26,233 nt of DNA from a virus, in IMG/VR virus record IMGVR_UViG_3300010160_000198, positions 1 to 26,233 of that record; one strand, written 5' to 3'. How positions within the stretch are numbered: the stretch's first letter is position 1; each line of letters starts with the position of its first letter. The notes beneath the pieces were generated by a model, which ran no database searches, was not told the origin of the DNA, and saw nothing but the letters and a program-made list of their open reading frames with translations. Below are positions 6,060 through 8,141 of the stretch, in pieces. Both the position numbers and the translations under genes were made by a program.

Positions 6060-7587
6060 AAACAAATACTTAGTCATACAGACTGAAGAGCCACAGAAGA
6101 TTCTCTCGACTATCGCTAAGAGTGCCGAGTACACCGAGGATTCGGTGGCTGTTCATTGGGGACTGAAAGAAGCACAGATGCTAAAGACGCTTGGTTGGGA
6201 AGGCGTACCCTCCCCGATTGAGCGAGACTATGACTGGCCCGGACTCTATAGGCCAATGAACCACCAAAAGGATACCGCATCCTTTCTGACTCTACACCCA
6301 CGCGCTTTTTGTTTTAACGAACAAGGTACTGGTAAGACTGCATCAGCTATCTGGGCATCGGATTACCTGCTTGAGCAGGAATACATACGACGGGTATTGG
6401 TTATCTGTCCTGTGTCCATCATGCAAGCCGCATGGCAAGCCGACTTGTTTAAATTTGCTGTCCATCGCCACGTAGATGTGGCACACGGAGATCGCAAGAA
6501 ACGTAAGGCTATTGTTGAAGGCATCGCCGAGTACGTCATCATTAACTACGACGGTGTGAGCATTGTTGAAGAAGAACTCAAGGCTGGTGGGTTTGACCTC
6601 ATCATCATTGACGAAGCCAATGCCTACAAGAACTCTAGGACTGAGCGTTTTAAAACGTTAAGAAGAGTAACCACTCCTGATACTTGGATATGGATGATGA
6701 CTGGTACACCCGCAGCTCAATCACCATTAGATGCCTACGGCCTTGCCAAACTATGCGTACCCGCAAGAACCCCACACTTGTACACAGCGTTCCGCGATGT
6801 TGTGATGTATCAGTTCTCACGATTCAAATGGATTCCAAAACCGCAAGCCCAAGGCATAGTGCACAACCTCTTGCAACCTGCAATTCGCTTTGAGAAGAAA
6901 GACTGCATTGACTTACCTGATGTGACGCACACTTCGCGGTTCACTCCGCTAACACCACAGCAGTCTAAGTACTACAAAGACCTCAAGAAAGAGATGCTGA
7001 TTGAAGCAGTTGGCGATGAAGTCTCTGCCGTGAATGCGGCGGCTCAACTAAACAAACTATTACAAATCTCCTGCGGGGCTGTGTATACAGATACCAAGAA
7101 TGTCATAGAGTTTGACGCATCGAACCGATTAAACATTTTGTTAGAAGTTATTGAGGAGGCAAGCCATAAAGTTCTAGTGTTTGTGCCGTTCACGCACACG
7201 TTAGCTTTAATACAGGATTTCCTAACTAAGAATAAAGTAACGTCAGAGATTATCAATGGCTCTGTAAGCGTGTCAAAGCGTACCGACATCTTTAAAAGAT
7301 TTCAAGAGCAAGAGGAGCCACGAGTACTTTTGATTCAACCACAAGCGGCGGCACATGGGGTAACCCTTACTGCGGCAAACGTAATCGTATGGTACGCTCC
7401 TGTCACGTCGATTGAAACATACTTGCAAGCAAACGCACGTATCGATAGGCCGGGTCAGCGTAACCCTATGACGATCGTACATCTTGAAGGTAGTCCAGTA
7501 GAAACAAAACTCTACGGAATGTTGCAAAACAAATTGGACTTCCACAACAAGATTATTGATCTGTATAAAAGTGAAATTAACTCTTGA
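6046..7587 (+). CDS. SNF2-like superfamily 2 DNA helicase
   Basis: A DEAD/SNF2-type ATPase of 513 residues. Motifs in order: the Q-like residue Q74, Walker A NEQGTGKT (91-98), Walker B in the unusual form DEAN (189-192) rather than DEAH, motif III MTGTP (218-222), and motif VI QANARIDRPGQ (461-471) with the arginine finger. These two RecA-like lobes fit compact phage SNF2/UvsW-like helicases that remodel branched DNA or move along double-stranded DNA. No extra nuclease or zinc domain is present. The start is only weakly marked by a ribosome binding site and overlaps the preceding gene by 14 bp, so translational coupling is likely. The stop codon lies inside the -35 box of the following promoter. 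Confidence 0.9.
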   Translation: MQVVENKYLVIQTEEPQKILSTIAKSAEYTEDSVAVHWGLKEAQMLKTLGWEGVPSPIERDYDWPGLYRPMNHQKDTASFLTLHPRAFCFNEQGTGKTASAIWASDYLLEQEYIRRVLVICPVSIMQAAWQADLFKFAVHRHVDVAHGDRKKRKAIVEGIAEYVIINYDGVSIVEEELKAGGFDLIIIDEANAYKNSRTERFKTLRRVTTPDTWIWMMTGTPAAQSPLDAYGLAKLCVPARTPHLYTAFRDVVMYQFSRFKWIPKPQAQGIVHNLLQPAIRFEKKDCIDLPDVTHTSRFTPLTPQQSKYYKDLKKEMLIEAVGDEVSAVNAAAQLNKLLQISCGAVYTDTKNVIEFDASNRLNILLEVIEEASHKVLVFVPFTHTLALIQDFLTKNKVTSEIINGSVSVSKRTDIFKRFQEQEEPRVLLIQPQAAAHGVTLTAANVIVWYAPVTSIETYLQANARIDRPGQRNPMTIVHLEGSPVETKLYGMLQNKLDFHNKIIDLYKSEINS

Positions 7588-7596
7588 CATTGTCAA
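7584..7596. promoter_or_regulatory. Palindromic candidate operator over the -35 box
   Basis: TTGACATTGTCAA is a perfect 6+1+6 palindrome whose left half is the -35 hexamer itself. A dimeric repressor bound here would block RNA polymerase. A candidate regulator is the 80-residue HTH protein encoded about 1.6 kb downstream. A chance palindrome of this length within a promoter is possible but not very likely. Confidence 0.5.
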
Positions 7597-7611
7597 CAAA
7601 AAGAGTATAAT
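7584..7611 (+). promoter_or_regulatory. Consensus sigma-70 promoter
   Basis: A perfect -35 box (TTGACA, 7584-7589) and perfect -10 box (TATAAT, 7606-7611) are separated by 16 bp. The predicted start of transcription, about 7-8 nt downstream, is G7619 or its neighbour. The -35 box overlaps the helicase stop codon. The promoter would drive the structured leader and the genes from 7746 onward using host RNA polymerase. No comparably perfect promoter was noticed elsewhere in the window, though no systematic scan was possible. Confidence 0.85.
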
Positions 7612-7618
7612 GATTTTC

Positions 7619-7718
7619 GTTGATGATGTGTAATGCGGGTTAGCGCCGCATCTTCCTAGTTTTGTGCAAATACATAGGAAGGACGGACTCCACTGCTTTA
7701 TGTGAACACATCATCAAC
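7619..7718 (+). ncRNA. Structured RNA leader or small RNA, multibranched
   Basis: The region folds into a closed multibranch structure visible directly in the sequence. Stem P1 is a perfect 13-bp pairing of 7619-7631 (GTTGATGATGTGT) with 7706-7718 (ACACATCATCAAC). Inside it, P2 pairs 7633-7638 (ATGCGG) with 7646-7651 (CCGCAT) around a 7-nt loop. P3 pairs 7652-7658 (CTTCCTA) with 7675-7681 (TAGGAAG) around a 16-nt loop. P2 and P3 are directly adjacent, as for coaxial stacking, and a 24-nt single strand (7682-7705) returns to P1. The 5' end matches the predicted transcription start. There is no U-run after P1, so it is not a simple terminator. It lies 27 nt before the next start codon, so it could be a riboswitch-like leader, a processed small RNA or an mRNA-stabilising cap. 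It does not match any RNA family I can recall. Confidence 0.6.
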
Positions 7719-7745
7719 ACCTATAAAAAACAAATTGGAGTGAGT

Positions 7746-8141
7746 ATGGAATCAGAATTTTCTATTGAGAAAGTCGTCGAGGCTTACATTAAGATTCGCG
7801 ACACCAAAGAAGCAATGTACGCAAAGTACAAAGCCGAGTCTGCCCAGTTAGAGGAGCAGATGACTATCCTAAAGCACAAGTTACTTGAGGTCTCGAAAGA
7901 GACTGGCGTGACTAGCTTTTCAACACCGCAGGGCACTGCGTATCGAACCGTCAAAGACCGCTTCTGGACTAATGACTGGGAAAGCTTCTATAAATTTATG
8001 CAAGAGCATGAAGCAATGGGGCTATTGGAGAAACGTATTCATCAAACGAATATGAAAGAGTTCTTAGAGAACAACCCCGATGTTGAACCTATGGGTTTGA
8101 ACATTGATCGGGAATATGAAATCACCATTCGGAGGAAGTAA
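7746..8141 (+). CDS. Conserved phage protein of unknown function (Gp157-like helical N-terminus)
   Basis: A 131-residue protein. The first half is a charged helix of coiled-coil type (about residues 8-50); the second has a STPQGTAYRTVKDRFWTNDW segment followed by LLEKRIHQTNMKEFLE and a short beta end. I recognise the pattern as one recurring in phage replication modules but do not know its function; the helix-plus-strand layout loosely resembles siphovirus Gp157. The frame is open upstream to a TTG, but this ATG is chosen for its ribosome binding site (TTGGAG, 6 nt before). It is the first gene behind the consensus promoter and structured leader, and the next gene overlaps its stop by TAATG. 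Confidence 0.7.
   Translation: MESEFSIEKVVEAYIKIRDTKEAMYAKYKAESAQLEEQMTILKHKLLEVSKETGVTSFSTPQGTAYRTVKDRFWTNDWESFYKFMQEHEAMGLLEKRIHQTNMKEFLENNPDVEPMGLNIDREYEITIRRK

Follow-up and report, generated by a model that had tools for sequence, protein, structure and literature searches.

Among the described counterparts closest to the RNA reported here is the put RNA of HK022, a small structured phage RNA that lies near an early-operon promoter and has no dedicated protein; putL sits just downstream of PL, and putRNA is about 70 nt long, consists of two stem-loops and occurs in two copies in HK022 (PMC9378689). Riboswitch leaders, which carry conserved loops in covarying helices within a 5' UTR, offer a second comparison. 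GOLLD and ROOL offer a third as uncommon structured RNAs of phage ncRNA and tRNA regions, although these large phage RNAs are far larger than the element considered here (PMC12286853). Phage accessory tRNAs, finally, are RNA cargo that is gained and lost, and they can counter defence (PMC11555353).

The window analysed in this study is an entire viral record of 26,233 bases, in which a structured RNA precedes a 131-aa gene that is surrounded by genes for a SNF2-type helicase, a family A DNA polymerase and a DUF927 primase/helicase-like protein. The putRNA of HK022 has two adjacent stem-loops, whereas the RNA described here has an outer helix (P1) that encloses three further helices (P2, P3 and P4), carries other conserved loops, is normally present in one copy and is also found stand-alone with a terminator. 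Its aptamer-like core has covariation support, as in riboswitch leaders; however, no expression platform was seen, the operon can dispense with the RNA, its neighbours elsewhere are unrelated, and stand-alone copies occur. The element lies beside tRNAs in three loci (L109, L137 and L242), but it has no cloverleaf and is recognised as a tRNA or tmRNA by neither ARAGORN nor Rfam.

An earlier sequence-only reading of this DNA had matched the RNA to no family, and this was borne out. No Rfam 15 family matched the element at the gathering threshold, a search of 7540-7800 at E values up to 10 returned a chance snR67 match alone, outside the element, and Rfam gave no match even in the array loci described below. 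An earlier description of the motif was not found in the open-access literature, an unindexed earlier report being possible; the isolate phages Rollin, Xp15, Effie, RHph_TM3_14A and HHU4 contain no copy, and BLAST returned none that was convincing. By Rfam and the open-access literature, the RNA is uncatalogued and is new as a family, not as a proven mechanism. An integron attC palindrome opens with AAC on the left and closes with GTT on the right; this candidate was rejected because P1 shows the reverse, GTT on the left and AAC on the right, and other P1 stems have neither.

The structured RNA and its promoter in the window

The outer stem of 13 bp, the two hairpins of 6 bp and 7 bp and the 24-nt strand described by the sequence-only reading were all recovered in both sequence and fold (Table 1). 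The minimum free energy fold of 7612-7749 (-41.3 kcal/mol, z = -3.43) includes P1, P2 and P3, none of 200 shuffled sequences folded as well, and the covariance model of the family matches the window at 7620-7717 with 69.9 bits. The strand left after P3 (7682-7705) has the place and length assigned to it, but it is not wholly single-stranded and contains a fourth helix, P4, that had been overlooked. Family members vary in how long P3 is and how it pairs, and no claim is made for it as a family-wide helix.

Table 1. Features of the locus, numbered along the 26,233-base window
Feature	Position	Strand	Remarks
-35 hexamer TTGACA	7584..7589	+	promoter match
Dyad TTGACATTGTCAA overlapping -35	7584..7596	+	probable operator; direct reading of homologous leaders
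-10 hexamer TATAAT	7606..7611	+	promoter match
Structured RNA	7619..7718	+	5' end is the predicted transcription start
P1 5' strand GTTGATGATGTGT	7619..7631	+	covariation in all 12 modelled pairs
P2 5' strand ATGCGG	7633..7638	+	6 bp with CCGCAT
Loop L2 GUUAGCG (DNA GTTAGCG)	7639..7645	+	nearly invariant
P2 3' strand CCGCAT	7646..7651	+	pairs with 7633-7638
P3 hairpin	7652..7681	+	CTTCCTA (7652-7658) with TAGGAAG (7675-7681), 7 bp; loop between
P4 hairpin CAC-UGCUUUAU-GUG	7691..7704	+	stem 7691-7693/7702-7704, 3 bp
Loop L4	7694..7701	+	8 nt, nearly invariant
P1 3' strand ACACATCATCAAC	7706..7718	+	13 bp, perfect, with 7619-7631
Shine-Dalgarno (SD) GGAG	7737..7740	+	outside the structured RNA; SD region about 20 nt from P1
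131-aa gene downstream of the RNA	7746..8141	+	weakly like DUF7307 (Pam3 gp33-like), below its cut-off; clear match to phrog_13900

The sigma-70 promoter ahead of the RNA, with a 16-nt spacer between its hexamers, scores 12 out of 12 and is the sole perfect match in the window, where 0.01 would be expected by chance. Because the -10 ends at 7611 and the start is taken 8 nt further on, transcription is predicted to begin at 7619, the first base of P1, in agreement with the sequence-only reading; the same alignment recurs across the family. The -35 sits within a dyad of the form TTGAC-NNN-GTCAA, the second half of which is not needed by the promoter but persists in most homologous leaders (L002-L032); TTGACNNNGTCAA is found in nearly all of them, some without the RNA included. 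The dyad is probably an operator that sets the timing of the operon.

Covariation, conserved loops and predicted start of the family

A search across viral contigs with two conserved segments (GGTTAGCGCC N25-55 CACTGCTT) returned at least 120 stretches, whose flanks are unrelated and whose outer stems are complementary. In IMG/VR, the family comprises at least 195 distinct elements from at least 163 non-redundant loci, with RNAs of about 80-105 nt that are enclosed by P1, the sequence of which is free to change. When 85 non-redundant members were aligned, covariation was seen in every one of the 12 P1 pairs and in four of the six P2 pairs; 94.7% of the P2 cells are paired, and 16 of 21 pairs are altered on both sides. 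The covariation score was 0.457, whereas shuffles reached 0.166 and slid controls no more than 0.223. Because the search pattern fixes the 5' side of P4, this helix was scanned separately in elements having P1 and P2 that were picked solely for a middle P4 pair other than A-U, with pairing not required; the middle pair was standard in 69 of 69 such elements (50 G-C, 14 U-A and 5 C-G). Helices P1, P2 and P4 are supported by compensatory changes and the structure is secure; covariation confirms the RNA itself.

The loops are almost invariant across the family: L2 reads GUUAGCG, and L4 reads UGCUUYAU followed by A. Variants of L4 are rare (U5-to-A and Y6-to-G), and the family scans found changes at L2 positions 4, 5 and 6 in 0, 0 and 1 locus, respectively, the one case being a C-to-U change in L159 that could still pair with the G of L4. 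Run against 864 kb, the covariance model gave 98 hits with a lowest score of 43 bits; the relatives with simple hairpins gave no hit. Two tandem copies were observed at L157:3710-3899 on the strand opposite lysis-like genes, the second of which has CCC/GGG as its P4 and one changed P2 pair.

The position of the promoter is a further trait of the family. Among the non-redundant loci, sigma-70 promoters scoring at least 9.5 out of 12 are found almost solely where the -10 stops 2-7 nt short of P1. Hexamers that match the -10 at five or more of six positions end 5-7 nt before P1 in 39 of 162 loci, where about 1 would be expected, the background elsewhere being 0.23 per position. Given this pile-up at -5 to -7, an RNA with its own promoter is taken to begin at P1, and in loci with a recognisable promoter the predicted transcription start is the opening base of that helix.

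Genomic context and alternative readings

A strong promoter is present in about 24 of 160 loci, nearly all of which (about 20) precede the same 131-aa gene family, including proteins as diverged as those of the window, L111 and L189. Start codons cluster 14-36 nt beyond the RNA, and the conserved loops resemble a binding site. Each of these observations would suit a cis-acting leader, either a riboswitch or a protein-bound operator, for the gene behind it (in the window, the DUF7307/replication operon), yet this reading is judged unlikely. Elsewhere the neighbours are unrelated, comprising the terminase small subunit, repressor-like and other genes with no single pathway, and stand-alone copies end in terminators. 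Neither SD masking nor a terminator switch was seen, the SD of the window lying outside P1. Furthermore, the RNA is normally present once per phage despite the many operons available: among 50 phage records of 15-98 kb, 46 contain one copy and 4 contain two neighbouring copies. In 68 of the 163 loci, an SD-bearing gene lies no more than 45 nt away, and there a leader role is possible.

The genes and promoter also remain where the RNA does not. The 131-aa protein is encoded in 31 IMG/VR loci, 30 of which have usable leaders. The whole RNA is present in 17 of these leaders, with compensation in P1 (GTTGGTAACGCGT with GCGCGTTACCAAC; GTTGGTGGTGTGT with ACGCATCACCAAC); eight have a short hairpin on the same bases instead of the interior (L008, L011, L018, L019, L022, L024, L025 and L032; in L022, GTTGGTGGGGATCACCAAC), and five are without the whole element (L027-L031). 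Presence of the RNA, placed as a label on the gene-DNA tree, requires at least 4-5 changes, and L020, L022 and L023 have identical gene DNA, with the RNA present in L020 and L023 and its interior absent from L022. Gain and loss with the gene and promoter retained imply that the RNA is dispensable to the promoter-gene unit. When relocated copies were sought in the relatives without the RNA at this site, one weak match only was obtained (E = 0.0099). The sequence-only reading had suggested that the RNA could sense a metabolite or control timing before the replication cluster, and had named leaders that keep the genes and lose the stems as one observation that would count against it. Such leaders were found, some without the interior and some without the element, and at other loci the RNA adjoins unrelated genes, usually once per phage; by this test, the cis-regulatory proposal loses. 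As to the type of RNA, a riboswitch aptamer or a stand-alone small RNA had been offered, of which the latter fits best and the former is not supported.

A put-like nascent RNA, which would bind RNA polymerase so that terminators are ignored, is improbable. The put RNA itself antiterminates by way of the polymerase's zinc-binding domain. The placement of the RNA at the start of early-type operons or before the terminase small subunit, as for putL in HK022, agrees with this reading, as does the lack of any protein partner gene travelling with the RNA. However, the closed multi-helix architecture and normally single copy differ from the two stem-loops and two copies of HK022, and some copies have their own terminator at once downstream: L155, in which a terminator directly follows the element, copy 1 of L099, and the stand-alone L158, which reads TATACT, 6 nt, P1 through P1 and TTTTTTT. 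For copies directly before their own terminator, pure cis antitermination would be pointless. Strict terminators within 75 nt of the element were found in only 3 of 163 loci, and in none of the gene-leading loci.

The eight relatives that keep a short hairpin at the same base, together with hairpins read at the same position in Xp15 and Acinetobacter phages, would suit a plain 5'-end stabiliser, in which a stable stem at +1 shields the mRNA from decay. This reading also has a low probability, since it leaves both the two nearly invariant loops and the copies within arrays unexplained, and the leaders of L027 and L029-L031 have no obvious hairpin. A self-cleaving ribozyme would be in keeping with a compact multi-helix RNA that has about 25 conserved bases and many contexts, sometimes in arrays, but is very improbable, as known ribozyme models in Rfam gave no match at E values up to 10 and promoter-borne copies, in which P1 begins at +1, have nothing upstream to remove.

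The arrays in question are non-coding and combine the RNA with other recurrent hairpins. A second recurrent hairpin (AACACGCATGGGGATTG ... CAGTCCCCAGCCGTGTT) is present in 28 loci (e.g., L054:5330-5430 and L099:2952-2990) and often abuts the element, overlapping its GTTGG strand; the two stems could compete. At L099:2930-3770, the element lies between two further conserved segments without an Rfam match, all within a non-coding stretch of some 600-800 nt that has a promoter of its own. Such stretches are also found in L037, L058, L060, L127, L129, L130, L146, L151, L171, L244 and L266, and are possibly further phage RNA genes or one large RNA. The array at L054:5100-5560 additionally contains tRNA-like pieces (GGTTCGAAACC and GGTTCGAGGCC) that were not called by ARAGORN or Rfam.

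Among 84,980 species genomes, the exact pattern was found in seven contigs, three of them with the same sequence, and a model search of 399 Achromobacter-order genomes yielded 2. The carriers with a name comprise Achromobacter dolens, Vreelandella rituensis and Curvibacter, along with bins labelled Burkholderiales and beta proteobacterium. The carriers A. dolens LMG 26840 (L157) and V. rituensis (L153) are isolates, in which the copies appear to have a prophage setting; the Curvibacter copy, by reading of its surroundings, appears to lie between chromosomal genes, close to one that is gyrA-like. The contigs L153, L152 and L154, which derive from a Vreelandella isolate (L153) and two unrelated metagenome bins, are identical around the element, suggesting misbinning or contamination. 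Their phage-like sequence has a long non-coding region, which in L153 is located between terminase-like and portal-like genes.

A proposed trans-acting RNA cargo

The reading preferred here, to which about even chances are given, is that the element represents a small structured phage RNA of a new family, namely a modular and normally single-copy RNA gene. That such a gene acts beyond its neighbour is indicated by its presence once per phage, its varied surroundings, a start site of its own, the stand-alone forms and its recurrent gain and loss. From copy number and changing neighbours in particular, the RNA probably acts in trans rather than as a riboswitch of the replication operon. The active face of such an RNA gene would be its two nearly invariant loops, perhaps joined by a 4-bp loop-loop contact of AGCG in L2 with UGCU in L4. 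The variable positions of L4 (U5 and Y6) are those left unpaired in the loop-loop model, a pattern that fits the contact without proving it. Pairing of both loops with helix 18 of the Achromobacter 16S rRNA, to which GUUAGC and UGCUU are collinearly complementary, was tried and rejected, with 11 pairs compared with a mean best of 11.6 for 300 shuffled loop pairs; the best-scoring 16S site in this test most likely lies in flanking DNA.

Acting mainly in trans, the RNA would bind a conserved host component, which may be RNA polymerase, the ribosome, an RNase or a defence protein, and would be accessory cargo much like phage tRNAs and decoy RNAs. In the window it would at the same time form the opening ~100 nt of that operon's replication mRNA, where P1 may additionally protect the mRNA 5' end. 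A fuller version of this proposal can be put forward only tentatively: that many phages share an accessory trans RNA, in one copy each, which binds the host component through its two paired loops and serves counter-defence or the takeover of host expression.

If true, this would define a class of RNA cargo in phages that can be exchanged among operon leaders, tRNA clusters and stand-alone genes. The family has firm covariation support and is absent from Rfam; it turns up often in environmental phage contigs and seldom in sequenced genomes. For a single-copy, mobile RNA that is anchored at the transcription start, a pair of nearly fixed loops implies a partner that is specific and conserved, which, once found, would reveal a phage strategy that is invisible to protein-based annotation.
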